The position numbers and the translations under genes were made by a program. Source: an uncultured Armatimonadota bacterium (GTDB taxonomy: Bacteria; Armatimonadota; Fimbriimonadia; Fimbriimonadales; Fimbriimonadaceae). From it: a DNA stretch of 41,002 bases. Below, one piece after another: positions 21,108 to 38,218 of this stretch (positions are counted from its first letter, which is position 1; every line of letters begins with the position of its first letter). The stretch is taken from contig CAILEM010000112.1 of the NCBI GenBank assembly GCA_903833215.1, positions 1 through 41,002 of the forward strand. Reading direction: 5' to 3'. The notes beneath the pieces are model-generated. The model was given only the letters and a program-made list of their open reading frames with translations, was not told the origin of the DNA and did not search any database.

Positions 21108-21203
21108 CGCCGGGAACTGCGCGGCAGCAGGTCGGTGAATCCCGTCAGGACCGGAAGGTAGCAGCGGTAAGTCGATTCTCTGTGCGACGCACCATTCCCG
21201 GCG
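21108..21203 (+). ncRNA. ffs: Signal recognition particle RNA (4.5S, small bacterial type)
   Basis: The universally conserved SRP domain IV is present: GTCAGGACCGGAAGGTAGCAGC, with the GGAA-type tetraloop and both internal loops. The ends pair as a long rod: GCCGGGAA at 21109-21116 with TTCCCGGC at 21195-21202. Length of about 95 bases fits the small 4.5S form without an Alu domain. It binds Ffh and targets membrane proteins to the translocon. Its place directly ahead of dnaX-ybaB-recR is the same as scr in Bacillus subtilis. A second hairpin (CCCGGCGGTC with GACCGCCGGG) straddles the promoter and 5' end. Confidence 0.95.
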
Positions 21204-21283
21204 ACTGGAATCCTCTTTCGAAAGTCCGCAGAACTCCGAGATGATCGGTAATCTACGGCTACTTGTGATCTCGCGACAACACT

Positions 21284-27863: not shown

Positions 27864-30800
27864 ATGAAAATTAACCGCTATTTTACGAACAAGGGCTCTG
27901 ACCCCTATTCGGGTATTCCGTTTGAGGCCCGCAAGAGCGAGATTCGGAATCCCGACGGCTCCACCGTTTTCTTGATGGAAAACGTCATGGTTCCGTCCCA
28001 CTGGTCGCAGGTTGCGACCGATATCCTCGCGCAGAAGTATTTCCGAAAAGCTGGATTGACTCCCGGTGTCATCAACGGCCTCGACGAGAGCGATCCAAAC
28101 CTCAAGTACGTCGTTCCGACCGCCGAGCACGAAACCGACAGCCGCCAGGTATTCCACCGACTCGCGGGTTGCTGGCGATTCTGGGGCGAATCCCATGGCT
28201 ATTTCGACTCCAGTGAGGATGCCCAGGCTTTCTACGATGAGTTGGTCCACATGTTGGCCAAGCAGATCGCCGCGCCAAACTCTCCGCAGTGGTTCAACAC
28301 CGGCCTTCACTACGCCTACGGAATCTCTGGTGTGCCTCAAGGGCATTACTACGTCGATCCCAAGTCCGGTGAACTGAGCCGAAGCCATAACGCCTACCAG
28401 CGCCCTCAGCCTCACGCTTGCTTCATCCTCAGCGTGAAAGATGACCTCGTTAATGACGGCGGCATCATGGACTTGTGGACGCGTGAAGCGCGCATCTTCA
28501 AGTACGGCTCCGGCGTCGGTACCAACTTCTCAAAGATCCGCGGCGAGAACGAGAAGCTCAGCGGAGGCGGCAAGTCTAGTGGATTGATGAGCTTCCTCCG
28601 GGTGGGAGACCGCAGTGCGGGTGCCATCAAATCAGGCGGAACGACACGTCGCGCCGCGAAGATGGTCTGCCTTGACATGGACCACCCTGATATCGAAACG
28701 TTCATCAACTGGAAGGTTGTCGAGGAGCAGAAGGTTGCCGCCCTCGTCACCGGCTCCAAGCTTAACGAGCGTCATCTCAACGCGATCATGAAAGCCTGCT
28801 GGCAGCCAAATCCAGCCATCCCCGATGGCCCTGAGCAGAAGCCAGATTACAACCCACGCTCCAACGCACACCTGCGACGAGCCATTGCCGAAGCCAAAGT
28901 TGCCCTGATCCCACTGAACTACATTCAGCGAGCCATTCAGTTTGCCCAACAAGGTTTCAAATCGATCGACTTTCCAACGTACGACACCGGTTACGAATCT
29001 GAGGCTTACCTCACTGTCTCCGGGCAGAACAGCAACAACTCGGTTCGTGTGCCCAACGATTTCTTCTATGCCGTCGAGCAGGGAAGAGAATGGAGTCTGA
29101 CCTCACGAACGTCAGGGAATCCCATCCGAAACGTGGATGCCCGAGACCTTTGGGAGCAGATTTGCGAGGCGGCCTGGAATAGTGCAGACCCTGGTCTTCA
29201 GTACGACACGACGATCAATGAGTGGCACACTTGCCCTGCCGATGGTCGCATCAACGCCAGCAACCCGTGCTCTGAGTACATGTTCTTGGATGACACGGCC
29301 TGTAATCTGGCCAGCATCAACCTCGTCCGGTTCTACGATCCGCAAACGGGTCAGTTTGATATTCAAGGTTATGAGCACGCAATCCGGCTCTGGACCATCG
29401 TGCTTGAAGTTTCCGTCCTCATGGCGCAGTTCCCATCCAAGGAGATCGCGAAGCTCAGCTACGAATTTCGAACGCTTGGCTTGGGTTATGCCAACCTCGG
29501 CGCTTTGCTGATGCAGATGGGCATTCCCTATGACAGCCCACAAGGTTTTGCCATCACCGGTGCGCTGACATCCATTCTTGGCGGTGGCAGCTACGCCACA
29601 AGTGCAGAGATGGCAAGCCAGTTGGGCACCTTCCCAGGCTATGACCGCAATGCCACCAATATGATGCGGGTTATCCGCAATCATCGCCGCGCCGCCTACA
29701 ACGCGCCTCGCGACGACTACGAGGGCCTAAGCATCTATCCCGTCGGAATCAGTGAAAAGGACTGTCCGTCCAACTTGATTCAAGCCGCCCGATCGGCATG
29801 GGATCATGCCGAGATGCTCGGTGTGATGCACGGCTTCAAAAACGCGCAGGTCACCGTTCTTGCCCCAACCGGCACCATCGGCTTGATCATGGATTGCGAT
29901 ACCACTGGTATCGAGCCGGACTTCGCGTTGGTCAAGTTCAAGAAGTTGGCCGGCGGCGGTTACTTCAAGATCATCAACCAGTCCATTCCGCCTGCCCTCA
30001 CCAAACTGGGATATTCGGAAGATCAGGTCGCCGACATCATCGGTTACACGCTTGGACATAAAACGCTTCAGGGTGCGCCGTATATCAACCACGAGAGCCT
30101 CACCCGCAAGGGATTCACTCGGGAAGCGCTCGCCAAGCTCGAAGGGGCTCTTGAGAATGCGTTTGAAATCGCGTTTGCGTTCAACAAGTGGACGTTCGGT
30201 GAAGACTTCTGCCGCGACGTGCTTGGCTTCTCCGACGATCAGTTGAATGATTGGACGTTCAACATGCTTACCGAACTCGGTTTCAGCAAGGCTGAAATCG
30301 ATGCAGCGAACGAGTACGTTTGCGGAACGATGACCGTCGAGGGTGCGCCACACCTTCTCAACGAGCACCTTCCCGTATTCGACTGCGCCAACCGTTGTGG
30401 CAAGAAAGGCCAACGGTTCATCAGTGCCGAAGGACATATTCGCCAGATGGCAGCGGCTCAGCCGTTCTTGTCGGGTGCGATCTCGAAGACGATTAACCTT
30501 CCTTCCGAAGCCTCGATCAAGAGCATCAACGATGCGTACTGGCTGTCTTGGACGCTCTGTCTCAAGGCGAACGCACTGTATCGAGATGGTTCGAAGCTGT
30601 CACAGCCGCTCAACGTTTCATCAGACGATGCCGCCGCTGCGATTCTCGAGGCGTCGATCGATCAGGAAACCGAAGTGGTCACTCTGAGAATTGAGGAGCC
30701 AACTCCTGTCGCGGTTGTGGCTGCGGTACCCGAGCCTGTGGCGGTCGTACCTGCATTCTCTGCATCGGCTCCTGCACCTGTTGCCTTGCCTGATCCAGTG

Positions 30801-31742
30801 ATGGAAGCGGCGACGAAGCTCGTCTATCGCTACATCTCGAAGCGACGGGTTCTGCCGGCTCGCCGACGTGGATACACCCAGAAAGCCCGCGTTGGTGGAC
30901 ACAAGGTCTACCTGCGAACCGGTGAATTCGAAGACGGCGCTCTTGGCGAGATCTTTGTCGACATGCACCGCGAGGGCGCTGCGTTCCGAAGCTTGATGAA
31001 CTGCTTCGCGATCGCGATCTCCCTCGGCCTGCAGTATGGTGTGCCGCTTGAGGAGTTCGTCGAGGCGTTTGTTTTCACTCGATTCGAGCCAAACGGCATC
31101 GTTCAGGGCCACGACAACATCAAGATGTCGACGTCCGTCATCGATTACATCTTCAGAGAGTTGGCCCTCAGCTACCTCGGCCGCACCGACCTGGTTCAAG
31201 TGAAGCCTGAAGATCTGCGTGGCGACGCCGTCGGCAGGCCGAGTCAATCTCCTGCATTCGAAGATGAAGAAGTCGAGAGCGACGACTTCCGGGGTCCTGT
31301 TCCAGGACGAGCCCAGGAAGACCACACCGCAGCCGGATTCCAGCCCAATTCGGGTCAAGAGGCGTTGCCGTTTGACGACAATCCTCAAGCCGTCGGCAGC
31401 CCGACCTGGGTGATCGAGCAGAGTCAGAAATCGGCTCAACCCCAATACGAAGAGCGGATCGTGAGCGGTCATGGCGCGAACGGAAAGATGCTGGTCGAAG
31501 CAAGTTCCGCTCCTGTCGCTCCTGCCCCCGAGGTTCCTGTCGTCCAAGTCCAGCTTGGAGCGACAGTGGCACCGAAGCGTCCCCCGCAAAGCGAAGTCTC
31601 CATGATCGTGGAGAAGATTCGCCAGGCGCGCCTGAAAGGCTACGAAGGCGACCCTTGCTCGAACTGCAACGCCTTCACCATGGTCCGCAACGGCGTCTGC
31701 CTCAAATGCGATTCCTGCGGCGAAACCAGCGGCTGCAGCTAG
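27864..31742 (+). CDS. nrdJ: Vitamin B12-dependent (class II) ribonucleotide reductase
   Basis: 1292 residues. It reduces ribonucleotides with adenosylcobalamin as radical source, without oxygen dependence. Catalytic cysteines can be placed: Cys186 in QPHACFIL, Cys469 in NPCSEYMFL and Cys480 in [11 protein letters not shown]; the 11-residue spacing equals Cys322-Cys333 of the Thermotoga enzyme, where Cys322 is the thiyl site and 333 is half of the redox pair. After the barrel there is a Pro/Ala/Val-rich linker (about 940-980), a second conserved domain, another acidic/Pro-rich linker, and a Cys-rich tail (six Cys in the last 31 residues, [14 protein letters not shown]) that probably re-reduces the active site. 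Transcribed with nrdR, 54 bp apart. Confidence 0.97.
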
Positions 31743-31764
31743 TCGGTTAGGTGGGTAGGTTCAA

Positions 31765-31805
31765 CGAGCCGGAAGGTCGGGCAAAGCCCGCCACCTTCCG
31801 GCTCG
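31765..31805 (+). terminator. Large hairpin after nrdJ (possible terminator)
   Basis: A 13-bp perfect stem (CGAGCCGGAAGGT with ACCTTCCGGCTCG) carrying an inner GGGC/GCCC stem. It lies 23 bases after the nrdJ stop. There is no T tract, so it may act as an mRNA 3'-end stabiliser or belong to the repeat family and not as a classic terminator. Confidence 0.5.
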
Positions 31806-31807
31806 TT

Positions 31808-32103
31808 CCGGTTCGCCAAAGGCGATGTTTCTCCAAAAAGCGAAGGCTTGGGCCGCGAAGCGGATCTAGCCTGGTGAGTTGGCACGGCACGATTCCTTCC
31901 CCAAAAGGGGATGCGTCTGGGAACGGTGGAACAAATCGGTTCGCCGAGCAAGGCATCCGCCTTGCCCATGATCGACGCGGAGCGTTTGGGGCGTTGCCCC
32001 TGACGTATATGTCGCACCTCCGGCGCTCATCAGGTTGGGTTGGCACCGGGAACCAGGCTTTCAGCCTGGGCTGGTATAGGGCCGCCCCTTTTTGGGGCTA
32101 CAT
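31808..32103 (+). repeat. Structured repeat, A-B unit, copy 1
   Basis: Module A (31808-31930) runs from CCGGTTCGCCAAAGG through AAAAAGCGAAGGC, a long imperfect hairpin GGCTTGGGCCGC / GCGGATCTAGCC and CCCCAAAAGGGG. A bridge with GCAAGGC/GCCTTGC follows. Module B (about 31978-32103) has a GGGGC/GCCCC hairpin, the invariant core CTGACGTATATGTCGCACCT, the hairpin CCAGGC/GCCTGG and finally GCCCC/GGGGC plus TACA. Confidence 0.92.
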
Positions 32104-32122
32104 TTGGGCGCGTTGTGATCCT

Positions 32123-32415
32123 CCGGTTCGCCAAAGGCGATCCTCTCCAAAAAGCGAAGGCTTGGGCCGCGAAGCGGACCTAGCCTGGTGAATACGGCAC
32201 GGCGCCATTCCTTCCCTGAAGGGGATGCGTCTGGGGACGGTGGAACTGATCGGTCTGGGGAGCAAGGCATTCGCGTTGCGCGTGAACGAGCCGGAGCGTT
32301 TGGGTCTCTGGCCCTTGACGTATATGTCGCACCTCCGGCGCTCTACTCGTTGGGTTGGCACCGAGAACCAGGCTTTCAGCCTGGGCTGGTATAGTGCCGC
32401 CCCTTCGGGGCTACA
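32123..32415 (+). repeat. Structured repeat, A-B unit, copy 2
   Basis: Second tandem copy, about 293 bp, same order of hairpins as copy 1, with many scattered substitutions (closing stem GCCCC TTC GGGGC instead of GCCCC TTTTT GGGGC; bridge stem partly decayed to GCAAGGC/GCGTTGC). Confidence 0.92.
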
Positions 32416-32469
32416 TTTTGGGGACGTCAATTTATCAGGTCCCCCGACGCTCCAATCACGAAATCGTTT

Positions 32470-32545
32470 CGTCGAACGCTGAAGGCGTTCTGTCCTCAAA
32501 GCCCAGTGTTGCGTCGCGAAGCGAGGCTACGCTGGGTGGCGTCGG
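32470..32545 (-). repeat. Module C, inverted copy
   Basis: Read on the minus strand it shows CCCAGCGTAGC...GCAACACTGGG as an outer stem, then the phrase TGGGCTTTGAGGACA, then a hairpin AACGC/GCGTT. Same family as 125-160, 32620-32753 and 35410-35533. Confidence 0.8.
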
Positions 32546-32619
32546 TGCGATCCGGTCAACGCCGCAGGTGTTGCGTCCCATACGGCCGCTCATTGGCGCG
32601 GGACCAACCAATACATGCG

Positions 32620-32753
32620 GTTTTCCTCCGTTTCCGGACTCAACGCCTACAGCGTTGGATGGATTGAACTTAGTTGACCCAGGGTAGAGCCTTTGCAGGC
32701 CCAACCTTGGGCTTTGCGGACAAAACACCTTGGGTGTTTGAGAAGCCACCACT
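32620..32753 (+). repeat. Module C, forward copy 1
   Basis: Contains TTTCCGGACT, a hairpin CAACGC/GCGTTG, the phrase GACCCAGGGTAG..., TGGGCTTTG.GGACA, and a hairpin AACACC/GGTGTT. It ends about 40 bp before the small gene at 32794. Confidence 0.85.
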
Positions 32754-32793
32754 TACCCGAAATAACGGTAGCCTTGCCGATGGGTGAATCAAC

Positions 32794-33231
32794 ATGGATA
32801 GAGAATTCAAATTCGCATTCAGCATCCTGAGCCTCGCAGCGATGGGAATGGTAGCCCTTGTCATCAACGCTCGCAAGGCACCTTACGATCCATTTCAGTC
32901 CCTGAAGGATTTCGACCCAATCATTACAGAAGCGAGCCTCGGGTATTCGCTTACACCCAATGAGATTCGCGAGATTAAGAAGGACCAGCCGACTATGACG
33001 GCTACCCTTTACACGTTCTACTGTGATCCTGCGACGGTGGAACAGAGTATTGAGAAAAACCTAAGTGATCGGAGCATTTGGAAAAGAACGGATCTAGGGC
33101 AGCATTTACTATCCTTTGAGCAAACAAAAGCCAAAGCAGTTTGTGTTTTCACCATAGGCGAACCTTTTGCCGTCGCATCCAAGCAACCCCCTCCGGGCGT
33201 GACCTGCTATGCGGTTATCATTCGGCATTAA
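32794..33231 (+). CDS. Hypothetical membrane-anchored protein, 145 residues
   Basis: Starts with ATG and has one hydrophobic segment (about 8-24, FAFSILSLAAMGMVALVI) followed by a soluble extracytoplasmic domain of about 120 residues, containing two Cys that could be disulphide-bonded. No family recognised. Base composition is lower in GC than nrdJ. It lies inside the repeat island, between a C module and the next small gene, 18 bp from the next open frame. Confidence 0.65.
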   Translation: MDREFKFAFSILSLAAMGMVALVINARKAPYDPFQSLKDFDPIITEASLGYSLTPNEIREIKKDQPTMTATLYTFYCDPATVEQSIEKNLSDRSIWKRTDLGQHLLSFEQTKAKAVCVFTIGEPFAVASKQPPPGVTCYAVIIRH

Positions 33232-33282
33232 GGAACTGTAACCGTTAATTTGGTTGTCTCTGGGATTGGGAATCCACACTTA

Positions 33283-33654
33283 ATGAAGAAAGTGCACGCC
33301 ATATGTGTCTTGTCGGTTTTCGGAATCTTGATGACAGGATGTACTGTTGATAAGAGCAGCGTCCTAAGTGTGAGTTCACCGAATAGGGCATATAACCTAT
33401 CCGTAGAAGCATGGGATGTTGGGGCGACTTCCGGCATCTCCTATCACGTGGACCTGACAAAATACGGATTTCTTGCCGGCGAAACACAAGAAGAGGTGGC
33501 GATCTTCGACAAGGTCTTCTACGAAGGTGATATCCAGATCAAATGGACTTCAGCAACCGAAGTCACCATCTTTGCTCCCGGTGCGAGGGTATTCAAGCAT
33601 CTGAAGACGGTCACATTCGGTCAACATCAGATCAGATTGATCCTGAAGACGTAG
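33283..33654 (+). CDS. Small lipoprotein
   Basis: 123 residues from the ATG at 33283 (upstream in-frame codons from 33250 lack a signal). Typical lipoprotein signal: MKKVHAICVLSVFGILMTGC, with the lipobox LMTGC and acylated Cys20. The mature part (LSVSSPNRAYNLSVEAWDVGATSGISYHV and onward) resembles the short beta-rich domain seen in many small lipoproteins that follow the pattern S-P-x-G/R-x-Y ... GATT. Function unknown. Repeat module B begins immediately after its stop. Confidence 0.7.
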   Translation: MKKVHAICVLSVFGILMTGCTVDKSSVLSVSSPNRAYNLSVEAWDVGATSGISYHVDLTKYGFLAGETQEEVAIFDKVFYEGDIQIKWTSATEVTIFAPGARVFKHLKTVTFGQHQIRLILKT

Positions 33655-33655
33655 T

Positions 33656-33716
33656 TTGGCCCCCGGAACCAGGCGTTCAGCCTGGACCGGCATAGAGAGG
33701 CCCCGCCGGTGCTACA
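33656..33716 (+). repeat. Module B, 3' fragment
   Basis: Starts at the stop of the lipoprotein gene; it contains only the terminal hairpins of module B: GGAACCAGGCGTTCAGCCTGG and GGCCCCGCCGGTGCTACA. Confidence 0.75.
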
Positions 33717-33738
33717 TTCAGCCCCGTTGTGCCCTTAC

Positions 33739-33991
33739 AGTCCGCCAAAGGCGATCTTCTCCAAAAAGCGAAGGCTTGGGCCGCGGAGAGGACCTAGCCT
33801 GGTAAATGTGGCACGGCACAATTTCTTCCCTGAAGGGGATGCGTCTGGGAACGGTGGCGTTCACCGAACCGGAGCGTTTGGGGCGATGCCCCTGACGTAT
33901 AAGTCGCACCTCCGGCGCTCATCTGGTTGGGTTGGCACCGGGAACCAGGCTTTCAGCCTGGGCTGGTATAGGGCCGCCCCTTTGGGGCTGC
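33739..33991 (+). repeat. Structured repeat, A-B unit, copy 3 (shorter)
   Basis: About 253 bp. It has modules A and B but lacks the GCAAGGC bridge hairpin of copies 1 and 2. The A stem is partly decayed (GCGG changed to GAGG), the B hairpins are intact. Confidence 0.9.
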
Positions 33992-34075
33992 CTGATCGCT
34001 TGGGCTCCTTGAAGAGCATGGGATGACGTGGGATGTGCTGAACGTTTGGGATTAGGATGTTATCATTCGTGACCG

Positions 34076-34184
34076 GACGCATCCCCTTTGGGGAAGGGGC
34101 GCTTGGACGATCGGGTTACCAGGCAAGCCCCGTCGACGGGGCATGCCTTCGCTTTATGGAGAGGATTGCCTTTGGCAAACCGGA
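34076..34184 (-). repeat. Module A, inverted copy with recoded stem
   Basis: On the minus strand this is module A: CCGGTTTGCCAAAGGCAATCC, AAAGCGAAGGC, the long hairpin, and CCCCAAAGGGGATGCGTC. The hairpin arms differ from other copies: AGGCA and TGCCT outside, GCCCCGT and ACGGGGC inside, around CG. Pairing is fully kept. Confidence 0.85.
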
Positions 34185-34314
34185 AGGGATTTGAGGCATG
34201 CCCGATATTATGGAAACTTCTCGTTTTCCCAAGGCGCTTCCGTTGGGGGAAGGAAGGATTGGTAGTCGTGAGACTGCGGCAGTCCTGGAATTCTAGGAGT
34301 ACGCTTTAGCGATT

Positions 34315-34569
34315 CCGGTTCGCCACAGGCGATCCTCTCAAAAAAGCGAAGGCTGGGGCCGCGGAGCGGGCCTAGCCTGGTAAGGCGGCACGGCACGATT
34401 CTTCCCTGAAGGGGATGCTTCTGGGAACGGTGGCGTTCATCGAACCGAAGCGTTTGGGGATTTGCCCCTGACGTATATGTCGCACCTCCGGCGCTCATCA
34501 GGTTGGGTTGGCACCGAGAACCAGGCTTTCAGCCTGGGCTGGTATCGGGCCGTCCCCGCTGGGGCTACA
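34315..34569 (+). repeat. Structured repeat, A-B unit, copy 4
   Basis: About 255 bp, without the bridge hairpin, like copy 3. The B hairpin loop reads GGGGATTTGCCCC and the closing stem CCCC GCT GGGG. It ends about 90 bp before the gene at 34657. Confidence 0.9.
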
Positions 34570-34656
34570 CGACCAGCGTTTTGGATGATTACGGGTAATC
34601 ACACTAGAGTTGGGTCCTACCCTCGCAACCGAATATGTCACGAATCGTGCGGGTGT

Positions 34657-35190
34657 ATGATGGGCTCAATGTGGCAAAGACTAATCAATCTAGGTGGGGT
34701 TATCGGGCTGCTGTTGATCGGTGGCTTCATTGGTTACGTCGCATTTCCGATTGTCGCGTCCTCGCGCGTATCACACATGTTGGTTGCAAGACACGTTCGC
34801 ATTCGTGAAATCGAACTTACGCTGTTCACTTACATGGGAGACCATCAGGATAGATTTCCGACGTTGTCCGAGTGGCAGAATGTCATTCAGAAGAAGCCAG
34901 ATCAGCCAGTGCGATGGCGCAATCTGTATGTCCATTACCAGCTAAATCCTCAGGTCCAAGGGAAGCGCCTGGAGGACTTGCCGTCTGATACGATTGCTGT
35001 GTTCGAGTATTTTTCGCTAGATCCAAAGCCGACTCTAGGTGGCGTACCACCGGCCGTTGCGTTGGCACCATTCGACTATGTCGATGTCATTTTCGCGAGT
35101 TCACAAGTAAAGTCGCTCCCCGTCAAAGAAGTCCTTGAGAACCTTCGGGGTGACAAAGGGGAAACGAAAACTCCACAGAGAGGAGGTTAA
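34657..35190 (+). CDS. Hypothetical single-pass membrane protein
   Basis: 177 residues from the first of three nearby ATG codons (34657, 34660, 34669); I cannot decide between them. One hydrophobic helix (GGVIGLLLIGGFIGYVAFPIV) is followed by about 145 residues outside the membrane. The helix plus the following RVSHMLVARHVRIREIELTLFTYMGDHQDRFPTLSEW recalls the type-IV-pilin-like (DUF1559/prepilin) layout, where a long N-terminal helix is followed by a variable domain, but no prepilin cleavage motif is seen. The frame is open upstream to 34462, where it runs through repeat module B; that extension is not credible. Confidence 0.6.
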   Translation: MMGSMWQRLINLGGVIGLLLIGGFIGYVAFPIVASSRVSHMLVARHVRIREIELTLFTYMGDHQDRFPTLSEWQNVIQKKPDQPVRWRNLYVHYQLNPQVQGKRLEDLPSDTIAVFEYFSLDPKPTLGGVPPAVALAPFDYVDVIFASSQVKSLPVKEVLENLRGDKGETKTPQRGG

Positions 35191-35231
35191 GATCATCAGG
35201 GCCGAAATTCCGAACCGTGAGAAATTCAAGC

Positions 35232-35379
35232 TCTGGGAACGGTGGCGTTCACCAACCGGAGCGTTTGGGGCGTTGGCCCTGACGTATATGTCGCACCTCC
35301 GGCGTTCATCTGGTTGGGTTGGCCCCCGGGAACCAGGCTTTCAGCCTGGGCTGATATGGGGCCGCCCCTTTGGGGCTTC
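35232..35379 (+). repeat. Module B with A end, copy without module A body
   Basis: Starts at TCTGGGAACGGTGG (the last bases of module A) and runs through module B to GCCCC TTT GGGGC. The invariant core CTGACGTATATGTCGCACCT is kept exactly. Confidence 0.9.
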
Positions 35380-35409
35380 ACGTTGGGTGCGGGTAATCCG
35401 ACAAGGGTG

Positions 35410-35566
35410 GTGTTTCTTCGTTTCCGGACTCAATGCCTTCAGCATTGGAGGGATTGGGCTTCGGCGACCCAGGGTAGGGCCTTTGCGGGCCCAACCATGG
35501 GCTTTGAGGACAAAACACCTTTGGTGTTTGGGACCCACCTCCGGCCACCCCTTTGGGGCTACATGT
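35410..35566 (+). repeat. Module C, forward copy 2, joined to a B-type end
   Basis: Has the hairpins CAATGC/GCATTG and AACACC/GGTGTT and the long stem CCCAGGGTAGGGCC / GGCCCAACCATGGG. It continues into CCACCCC TTT GGGGC TACAT, the closing hairpin of module B. Confidence 0.88.
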
Positions 35567-38218
35567 TTAGTTGCCTTTGTCTTTCATGTCTGCGCTTTGG
35601 CGGTAGCCGTCGCCGATGAGGTGTTCGCAGAAGTATTCGTAGAGCATCTCAGTGAAGTAGGGTTGGAGGTCGGCGTAGCCGTGAGGTTTGCCGGGCATGA
35701 GCATGAAGTCGAAGCGCTTGTTGGCGCGGATCAGGGCGTCCATTAGGCGATAGGTACCGGCATAGTGGACGTTGTCATCCATGTCACCGTGGACTAGCAG
35801 GAGTTTGCCTTTTAGGTTTGCGGCAATTTCGGCGTTGGTGGGGACGTGGATGTCGAACTTCTTGTCGCCGGTTGCGGTTTGGGCAGTTGTGGTGGTTTGG
35901 GTCTGGGTTGTGCCAGTTCCTTGCCCTCGTCGCTGCCGCCCTTGCGGATCATCTTGGCTTTCGGGGAGAAGGAGGCGGTCGAGAATCACGCCGTCTCGAT
36001 AGGTTTCGGCCAGGTCTGAGTCCGTCGGCCCCGTTTCTTCGCCGTCAGGACCTGCACCTGCGGTGGCTGCTTTGGCAGCGCCGGCTACCTCGCGGAGGCC
36101 GTGGTACTGCTCAGACCAGTTCTGGTTGTAGATGTTGTTGTCGTGGTTTCCTGAAGACGACACGCCGACTTTGAAGAACTCGTTATAAGGGGGAAGGAGC
36201 ATCGCGGCGGCTGTCATAAATCCACCGCCCGAGTGGCCAAAGATGCCGACGCGGTCAATGTCGATGAATGAGAAGCGAGATGCCAACTGCTGGACACCAG
36301 CCTTCTTATCCGCCAAACCGTAGTCCCGCAGGTTGAAGTAGCCGTAAGTGTCGTACGCTTTCGAACGCTTGGGGTTGCCGCCGCGGTTGCCAATCTGGAC
36401 CACGATGAAGCCGAGCTGGGCGAGACGTTGGGTTCCGGCATTCGCGGAAAAGGTCGTGCTGACGCTCTCCGTCTGGGGACCTGGATAGACGTTGAGGACG
36501 ATCGGGTACTTCTTCGAGCTGTCGAAGTCAAACGGCTTCCACATCACACCATAAATGTCGGTCACACCGTCTTCGGCTTTCACTTTGAACGTCTCTGGCA
36601 TCTTCCATCCGGTGCTGGTCAGCCTCGAAAGGTCCATCCTCTCAAGCTCCATGATGACTTTGCCACGATCGTCGCGGACAACCGAGATCGGGGCCAAGTC
36701 AGGGCGGGAGTAGGTGTCGACGACGAAATTGTGCGCCTTGGGTGAGAGGGTGGAGTTGTGGTCACCATCTCCGCCATCGAGAAGCGTGAGGTCGGTGCCG
36801 TCGAGTTTGGCACGATAAAGGTGGGTGAAGGAGGGGTTCTGATCCGCTTCTCGTCCGCTGCCGAGCATATAGATGTTTCCGTGGTCGGCATCCAACTCGA
36901 CCACGCTATCGGTTCGAAACGGCTCATTGGTGATCTCGTTTTTCAGTTTGCCGTCGTTGGAGTAGAGGTAGAAACGGCCCCAGCCGCTTCGCTCCGACCA
37001 CCAAATCATGTCTCCGCCCGGCTTGACGTATCGAACCGGCTGCACACCGATGAATCCCGTTTCCGTCTGATCAGCGAGTAGCGGCTTCACCGCGTTGATC
37101 TTCATGTCGATATCGCACAGCTCTACGTGCCGCTGGAGCCGGTCTCGACGTACAAATCGAAGATGATCGGAGGATTCCAGCCAGTGGATATTGAATAGCT
37201 GCTGGTCCTTCCATTTGTCGACCTTGAGCGGGTTGAAGGCTTTGGTGTCGCGGTGGAAGACGTACAACTCAGTTTGTCGAACATCGGTCTCGCCTGGCAT
37301 CGAATACTTGTAGGAGACGAGAGTCGGGCGGGGCATCGTTAGAGAATTGACGAGATACAGCTCTTTCACTTTGCGGGTGTCAAAGCGTTCGATCACAAAC
37401 GACTTCGAATCGGGAGACCACGTTGCGTTAACGCGAACTCGCTTCTCTTTAGCGCCAGCGGCGGCACTTCCGTAGCCGTAATACTTCTCGCCGTCTTTTG
37501 TGAGTTGGACGGGCTTGTCTTCAGCAGTTGTCTCGGCAAAGTATAGGTTCTCATCTTGAGCATACACATATGCCTTCTTATCGGGAGAAAGAGTCCTAAA
37601 GCCCTCAGCATTGGCGTTTGCACCCGCTCCAGCAGCCCCACGACCCCTTCCACCACGTCCGCCGAACCTAGTTGGAGGCGGAGTGTCCTCATCGGAGGTG
37701 TCATCGGCAGCGACTTTTCCTACCGATTTGAGTAAGCCTGTCGCCAATTCCATCTCATATCGGACGGATTCGACGACAAACCGAATCGACTTGCCATCTT
37801 TGGTGAATGTTATGCTTGTGATCGGAAGATTTGTGACGTCGTACGGTTTGTGAACCAGTTCCGATAACTTGCTCGCCATTTTGGCCGGATCAAAAAGTAG
37901 CTTCTTCGATCGGGCTCTGGGATCGACTCGGTAGTATTTGAGGCCGTTGGCGTCTTTCCAGCTATACCAAAAAGCGTCGGATTCATTTATCCAGTGCGGC
38001 GCGACTGACGTGGAGTAGATGTACTGGTTGATGTACTCGTTCGAGAACTGCTGCTCCAGTTTCCAGTTGGCATGGTTGACTCGCTTTTGAACTCCTTCGG
38101 CGCCAAAGGCACTGGCGAAAGCCATGAGCAAGGCGAGAGATGCGATCGACCGTTGAGCATGGATCGAGCAGTGAGAAGAAAGGTGATTGGAGTGAGAAAA
38201 CCCTTGGAGCAGCCCCAT
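35567..38218 (-). CDS. S9 family (dipeptidyl peptidase IV-like) serine peptidase
   Basis: 883 residues, exported: hydrophobic core SIASLALLMAFASAF after a long polar start. An N-terminal beta-propeller (about 60-560) precedes the alpha/beta-hydrolase domain. The catalytic triad can be placed at Ser663 (FGHSGGGF), Asp814 (HGDMDDNVH) and His846 (GKPHGY), in the DPP-IV order. Two low-complexity insertions are unusual: a Gly/Arg/Ala-rich one in the propeller (GGRGGRGRGAAGAGANANAEG region, about 195-215) and a Gly/Gln/Thr-rich one between Ser and Asp (about 700-790). The family releases dipeptides from peptide N termini, often after Pro. The stop codon lies at the edge of repeat module C. Confidence 0.95.
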   Translation of the reverse strand: MGLLQGFSHSNHLSSHCSIHAQRSIASLALLMAFASAFGAEGVQKRVNHANWKLEQQFSNEYINQYIYSTSVAPHWINESDAFWYSWKDANGLKYYRVDPRARSKKLLFDPAKMASKLSELVHKPYDVTNLPITSITFTKDGKSIRFVVESVRYEMELATGLLKSVGKVAADDTSDEDTPPPTRFGGRGGRGRGAAGAGANANAEGFRTLSPDKKAYVYAQDENLYFAETTAEDKPVQLTKDGEKYYGYGSAAAGAKEKRVRVNATWSPDSKSFVIERFDTRKVKELYLVNSLTMPRPTLVSYKYSMPGETDVRQTELYVFHRDTKAFNPLKVDKWKDQQLFNIHWLESSDHLRFVRRDRLQRHVELCDIDMKINAVKPLLADQTETGFIGVQPVRYVKPGGDMIWWSERSGWGRFYLYSNDGKLKNEITNEPFRTDSVVELDADHGNIYMLGSGREADQNPSFTHLYRAKLDGTDLTLLDGGDGDHNSTLSPKAHNFVVDTYSRPDLAPISVVRDDRGKVIMELERMDLSRLTSTGWKMPETFKVKAEDGVTDIYGVMWKPFDFDSSKKYPIVLNVYPGPQTESVSTTFSANAGTQRLAQLGFIVVQIGNRGGNPKRSKAYDTYGYFNLRDYGLADKKAGVQQLASRFSFIDIDRVGIFGHSGGGFMTAAAMLLPPYNEFFKVGVSSSGNHDNNIYNQNWSEQYHGLREVAGAAKAATAGAGPDGEETGPTDSDLAETYRDGVILDRLLLPESQDDPQGRQRRGQGTGTTQTQTTTTAQTATGDKKFDIHVPTNAEIAANLKGKLLLVHGDMDDNVHYAGTYRLMDALIRANKRFDFMLMPGKPHGYADLQPYFTEMLYEYFCEHLIGDGYRQSADMKDKGN

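Follow-up and report, generated by a model that had tools for sequence, protein, structure and literature searches.

A cluster of REPIN-like three-hairpin repeats in an Armatimonadota genome, probably served by a subclass 1.2 TnpA-Y1 transposase

Repetitive extragenic palindromes (REPs), together with REPINs and bacterial interspersed mosaic elements (BIMEs), are dispersed intergenic palindromic sequences of 20–65 nt with one hairpin that occur in inverted and hetero-pairs; in the layout termed a REPtron, each repeat family frames one gene for its REP-associated tyrosine transposase (RAYT or TnpA-REP), a class 2 TnpA-Y1 protein with the motif Y---NP. REPs of Proteobacteria that carry the CGTC tag reportedly have no transposase. 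Insertion sequences (ISs) of the IS200/IS605 family (subclass 1.1, with IS608 and ISDra2) have one small subterminal hairpin per end, recognised as single-stranded DNA, and occur as near-identical copies. Real IS200 is found at 4.8 copies with 99% identity, whereas subclass 1.2 is found at 1.7 copies per genome with 36% identity; the published marks of the latter are DHVH, WQ, Y---Q--HH, a length of ~150 aa and a C-terminal tail, and it is reported to have neither REPs nor terminal structures and to be largely confined to Cyanobacteria and Bacteroidetes (Quentin et al., 2018, PMC6006769). The 'atypical secondary structures' of class 3 TnpA-Y1, with ~600 copies in Solibacter usitatus as an example (PMC6006769), and the TIRtrons with their TIRYT transposases (Di Nocera et al., 2013, PMC3733652) are further points of comparison. 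The window analysed here is the entire contig C112 (CAILEM010000112.1; 41,002 nt) of an uncultured Armatimonadota bacterium of the Fimbriimonadaceae, whose genome comprises 6.2 Mb in 168 contigs. It holds an island of long structured repeats of three types, A, B and C, and we consider it likely that REPIN-like non-autonomous elements have gathered here in a local cluster and belong to a REP/REPIN-type system served by subclass 1.2 TnpA.

The initial annotation of this DNA described modules A, B and C of no recognised class. The three are not unrelated but versions of one three-hairpin unit of ~95–125 nt, differing in orientation and sequence flavour. On the proper strand all three types run hpA–linker–hpB–linker–hpC, with hpA (5–6 bp, 3-nt loop) followed after ~14–19 nt by the central hpB (8–11 bp) and, after a further ~25 nt, by hpC (5–6 bp, 3-nt loop). 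The units form inverted pairs of ~300 nt (hpA-hpB-hpC ... hpC'-hpB'-hpA'); A and C are mutually homologous by profile search and outside the window stand in inverted pairs of near-constant length (~283–305 nt). The claim of structure rests on covariation, as the folding energies of single sequences are only moderately unusual (z -1.6 to -3.2). In alignment A2, made of 62 units flanking or near transposase genes of other genomes, 98.4% of cells were paired and 15 of 18 pairs had two-sided changes, with 133 double-sided changes against a shuffled mean of 31 (0/500) and a covariation score of 0.391 against 0.134 shuffled (0/500) and at most 0.12 for slid pairings. Alignment A3, made of 52 A and C units from the same genome as the window, gave 96.6% paired cells, two-sided changes in 17 of 21 pairs, 234 double-sided changes against a shuffled mean of 76 (0/500) and a score of 0.613 against 0.208 (0/500). 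On the modelled strand G-T wobbles outnumbered A-C mismatches by 28:6 in A2 (p = 2e-4) and 62:6 in A3 (p = 8e-13), and this excess implies that it is on a single strand, whether of DNA or of RNA, that the hairpins have their role.

Two covariance models were used to map the units: R1, built from the flanks of IS200-like HUH transposase genes of other genomes and containing no sequence of the window or its genome, and R2, built from A and C units of the genome itself; the E-values of these home-made models are rough. In units of the R1 type, CAT or TAT stands 3' of both outer hairpins (58 of 62 rows after each), and in the R2 type (G)TC follows hpA and hpC; this short motif may serve as a cleavage or guide motif. 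As a separate lead, CGTC lies directly 3' of hpC in 38 of the 52 A3 units, the 5' side of the hairpin not being so tagged.

The island is flanked by a class II ribonucleotide reductase gene, which ends at its left border (27864–31742; coordinates without a contig prefix are window positions), and by an S9 peptidase gene on its right (35567–38218). Direct and inverted repeats were confirmed at the annotated positions and occupy 1,839 of its 3,824 bp (48%), the majority of its non-coding DNA. Its units are as follows.

31802–31929, + strand: A-type three-hairpin REP unit, left half of chimeric pair 1 (R2 covariance match, 100.8 bits; member of the A3 training set)
32004–32102, - strand: B-type three-hairpin REP unit, right half of chimeric pair 1 (R1 match, E 1.3e-11, from a model without window sequence)
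32117–32243, + strand: A-type REP unit, left half of chimeric pair 2 (R2 match, 114 bits)
32319–32415, - strand: B-type REP unit, right half of chimeric pair 2 (R1 match, E 8e-13)
32465–32589, + strand: C-type REP unit, left half of a C/C inverted pair (R2 match, 92.1 bits; inverted arms in the repeat search)
32625–32748, - strand: C-type REP unit, right half of the C/C inverted pair (R2 match, 97.8 bits)
33633–33716, - strand: degenerate B-type fragment (R1 match, E 8e-4)
33731–33857, + strand: A-type REP unit, left half of chimeric pair 3 (R2 match, 104 bits)
33896–33992, - strand: B-type REP unit, right half of chimeric pair 3 (R1 match, E 1.5e-13)
34064–34189, - strand: single inverted A-type REP unit (R2 match, 116 bits)
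34309–34433, + strand: A-type REP unit, left half of chimeric pair 4 (R2 match, 103.9 bits)
34472–34569, - strand: B-type REP unit, right half of chimeric pair 4 (R1 match, E 9.3e-10)
35283–35380, - strand: lone B-type REP unit, annotated earlier as a B-rich copy (R1 match, E 1e-11)
35415–35538, - strand: lone C-type REP half (R2 match, 98.2 bits; R1 match, E 6e-4)

The repeats described initially are thus real, and above chance by covariation. The three C copies stand as well, although they form one C/C inverted pair and a lone inverted half rather than two forward modules and one inverted. The four A-B units (31802–32102, 32117–32415, 33731–33992 and 34309–34569) are 88–93% identical pairwise, and each is an inverted pair with unlike halves, since the order hpA-hpB-hpC lies on the + strand in A and on the - strand in B. 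Units 1 and 2 (301 and 299 nt) have the length of A/A pairs elsewhere, while units 3 and 4 (262 and 261 nt) are shorter centrally. Such hetero-pairs are rare outside the island (C72:1921-2230 in the same genome and C85:766-1127 in relative G012), and the clustering and identity of the A-B units suggest that they multiplied within the locus. Elsewhere in the genome (C54:12637-13148, L072), A units are repeated head-to-tail with a period of ~105 nt in a short array ahead of an inverted partner.

A check proposed with the initial annotation, a covariance search for copies between genes here and in related genomes, found many, and the repeats are not confined to this locus. R1 matched all five B modules of the window (E 1e-13 to 1e-9) and the C halves weakly; over the whole genome there were 110 R1 and at least 86 R2 matches, and two BLAST searches found 63 and 47 places. 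Although long ORFs (open reading frames) make up 77% of the DNA, only 14.5% of mapped REPs lie within them. Among 40 relatives, a TnpA match co-occurred with at least two REPs (10 of 15 genomes against 2 of 25; Fisher p = 1.7e-4, an optimistic value as related genomes are not independent).

A search of the genome with PF01797 (Y1_Tnp) returned seven proteins, four of them strong (P0001 to P0004), and each of the four full Y1 TnpA genes stands between copies of a multi-hairpin repeat family of its own that is also dispersed.

P0001, on C122: B copies on both sides
P0002, at C50:399: C halves
P0003, at C50:84200: B-like copies
P0004, on C25 (locus L058, C25:8400-9160): a fourth repeat family (CCTAGGGCGATGCCCTAGGCTATTGTTGGGGCGCACCTTTGGTGCTACA), also dispersed elsewhere

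The three weaker proteins (on C99, C59 and C109; frames of 171–195 aa) had no A, B or C repeats within the loci examined; they may be TnpA of class 2 or 3, served by other repeats. When named genomes were scanned with the four proteins, 80 loci were obtained, mostly from Verrucomicrobiota and also from Acidobacteriota, Planctomycetota, Lentisphaerota, Pseudomonadota and others. Left and right flanks resembled each other at 61 loci of other genomes (median score 86, against 22 for control windows of the same loci), with 74% above the 97.5th percentile of the controls. A profile made from six flank units found 273 units in 75 of the 80 loci, and of 64 loci examined 61 had the same 88-nt REP no more than 400 nt from the gene, on both sides in 44. 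The nearest left REP was on the + strand in 45 of 59 cases and the nearest right REP on the - strand in 37 of 46, so that they usually point inward, with median gaps to the gene of 17 and 12.5 nt; a transposase locus is in effect an inverted pair with a gene of ~450 bp, for a single-domain HUH-tyrosine (Y1) transposase, between its halves. R2 repeats likewise frame TnpA genes in relatives G004, G007, G012 and G017, and repeat type tracks the TnpA tree, the R1 label requiring 2 changes against 7.3 in shuffles (0/500).

Judged on their sequences, the associated proteins carry the motifs of subclass 1.2. The HuH motif DH[IV]H is DHVH in all four, the Y motif Y---Q--HH appears as YIHRQDEHH, YIGDQEDHH, YIDGQHEHH and YINNQEVHH, and WQ is invariant. 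Their length of 149–151 aa agrees with the expected ~148 aa, in which a short core is followed by a conserved C-terminal domain, represented here by the conserved tail FKEEY...GI..D..Y.WD. Copy number and identity are low, with four copies 46–66% identical to P0001, and the proteins match Pfam Y1_Tnp and NCBIfam transpos_IS200, the NCBIfam name being 'IS200/IS605 family transposase'. The reported lack of REPs and terminal structures, a descriptive rather than defining trait, does not hold here, as three-hairpin repeats frame the genes; the data contradict it for subclass 1.2 in the phyla sampled here. A Bacteroidota plasmid copy (Persicobacter) has the same three-hairpin order by eye and the Bernardetia flanks are inverted repeats; R1 gave no score on these Bacteroidota plasmid loci.

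Syntenic comparison gave sites lacking the repeats. The 3,824 bp slot of the island corresponds to 639 and ~548 bp in two relatives, with no repeats and a different small gene. The A/A pair at C60:200471-200761 lies in a spacer of 391 bp, against 36 bp in G004, and the A array at C60:214964-215454 in one of 730 bp, against 104 bp in G012. The slot gene of the two relatives (L220 in G012, C23:128620-129258, and L221 in G019) is small, conserved, on the reverse strand and of ~141 aa, and has no match in the window's own genome. The island itself holds three small ORFs, all bystanders.

32794–33231, + strand: small ORF of 145 aa, no Pfam match
33250–33654, + strand: small ORF of 134 aa from its first start, with a sub-threshold DUF5412 trace as its sole Pfam signal
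34462–35190, + strand: small ORF, no Pfam match

The listed start of the last falls within REP sequence, and its true start is therefore probably near ~34669. The only Rfam match of the window at the gathering threshold was a Bacterial small SRP (signal recognition particle) RNA at 21108–21206 (+ strand), and a tRNA scan of the window found nothing.

We propose that, as replication makes a strand single, TnpA would bind the hairpins of the left and right REP and nick at the short motif that follows hpA and hpC unpaired on their 3' side, which is CAT/TAT in R1-type units and GTC in R2-type units. Gene-less pairs could then be moved or copied in trans, in the way that has been proposed for REPINs and demonstrated for IS200/IS605 ends, and the A-B units would be hetero-pairs whose halves came from two repeat families before multiplying inside the locus. 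Mobilisation of the pairs by the transposase is thus the presumed step, while the architecture, covariation, dispersal, intergenic location, gene framing, match of repeat type to clade and syntenic absence are observed. Several points weigh against this proposal. The window contains no TnpA gene, and in the genome no TnpA gene can be clearly assigned to the A family, which is linked to one only by homology to the C repeats that frame P0002. The 80 loci were chosen by similarity to the genome's own proteins. No transposition event was seen, the copies are diverged, and insertion points and target duplications are unreadable, the intergenic sequence being too diverged at this distance. One relative, G005, has 65 R1 matches and no subclass 1.2 TnpA was found in it, and in five others (G011, G013, G014, G019 and G039) a TnpA match comes with at most one REP by the R1 and R2 models. 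In G005 (L224, L225) the repeats surround 'CATCATCGCAGCCTAGGGC' and could be orphan REPs or belong to another transposase.

One alternative is that the pairs are strict miniature inverted-repeat transposable elements (MITEs), derived by deletion from an ordinary insertion sequence that has inverted three-hairpin ends of ~90–120 nt and moves as a full unit. The tight, IS-like placing of the gene inside an inverted REP pair, the likeness of gene-less pairs to internal deletions and the NCBIfam label are consistent with this. However, a gene framed by inverted repeats is equally the REPtron layout, the four genes are diverged and each has its own repeat family, gene-less pairs are far more numerous than genes, and the published copy number and identity of subclass 1.2 are unlike those of real IS200 (PMC6006769). 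We therefore regard strict MITEs as possible but unlikely.

Another possibility, which we think improbable, is that the units are transcribed structural RNAs, acting as regulatory RNA or as stabilisers of transcript ends, that spread for that function. Strong strand-specific covariation would fit, as would the position of the 18 pairs examined, 6 of which separate convergent genes and 8 tandem ones. With 26 convergent cases among 118 neighbouring ORF pairs as background, however, the share of 6 is not clearly raised, so that enrichment between convergent genes is suggestive only; both orientations are present, as inverted pairs, the repeats have no Rfam match, and the two-sided flanking of HUH transposase genes would be left unexplained. 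A chromosomal landmark peculiar to this place, such as a protein-binding or segregation locus, would account for the unusual density of copies, four near-equal chimeric pairs among them, in one 3.8 kb slot, but is mostly refuted and very improbable given homologous units genome-wide and the repeat-free slot of the two relatives.

Structural RNA and landmark, both offered in the initial annotation, thus find no support here. Its third option, a mobile non-coding element, is the best supported, and its reading holds in that part but not quite in assigning the repeats to no known class. It was also right that they are neither CRISPR, ERIC, BOX or integron nor a simple tandem array. Their recognisable kind is that of REP/REPIN-like elements framing Y1 (HUH) transposase genes. 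They are palindromic, dispersed, extragenic and in inverted pairs, and matching repeats flank a single-copy Y1 transposase gene, as in a REPtron. In contrast to REP/RAYT systems, the unit has three hairpins in ~95–125 nt and the transposase is class 1 (Y---Q--HH). Neither known REP superfamily applied: GT[AG]G within 2 nt 5' of a hairpin was found in 0–1 of 62 and 0 of 52 rows (any helix, either strand), and the CGTC tag within 2 nt 5' of an 8–9 bp stem in 0–4 rows per helix. Class 3 TnpA-Y1, which has a CnGA foot, is similar in having dispersed non-canonical hairpin repeats round a class 1-like HUH gene in Acidobacteria and Planctomycetes, but differs in its protein motifs, NHVH and Y----Q against DHVH and Y---Q--HH here. 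TIRtrons share a tyrosine transposase gene inside long inverted repeats, with dispersed families and dimers; according to the accessible text of their description, TIRYTs are mostly of subclass 2.1, with longer proteins and the TIR (terminal inverted repeat) motif GGGGWSAS, and that text describes no three-hairpin architecture (PMC3733652). The Y1_Tnp and transpos_IS200 matches and the hairpin ends recall IS200/IS605, from which the three-hairpin inverted ends, diverged genes and many gene-less pairs differ; the numerous near-identical gene-bearing copies of subclass 1.1 are not found here. The distribution also departs from that published for subclass 1.2 by including Verrucomicrobiota, Acidobacteriota, Planctomycetota, Armatimonadota and others. 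The available text of the Fimbriimonas ginsengisoli Gsoil 348 paper reports 12 transposase genes and a lack of IS elements, and is silent on such repeats (PMC4072686).

On balance we lean towards the view that subclass 1.2 TnpA and its three-hairpin repeats form a widespread REP-transposase system in its own right, one that originated on the IS200 side of the family independently of GTAG-RAYT. Its recognition code would be distinct, with a central hairpin between two hairpin-plus-tag units, and its hetero-pairs would swap ends between families. The system lacks GTAG or CGTC tags and has larger, three-hairpin ends; an earlier description of it is possible, the literature search having covered open-access papers only. 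A group of HUH transposase relatives without a known substrate thereby gains a clear candidate, conserved from Armatimonadota to Verrucomicrobiota, Acidobacteriota, Planctomycetota and Pseudomonadota, and a type of intergenic repeat that is common in these phyla and has lacked annotation gains a name. The findings suggest that REP-type domestication of Y1 transposases took place on the IS200 branch too, so that the rules shared by the two systems, namely inverted pairs, one gene per repeat family and no mobile gene copies, can be compared.

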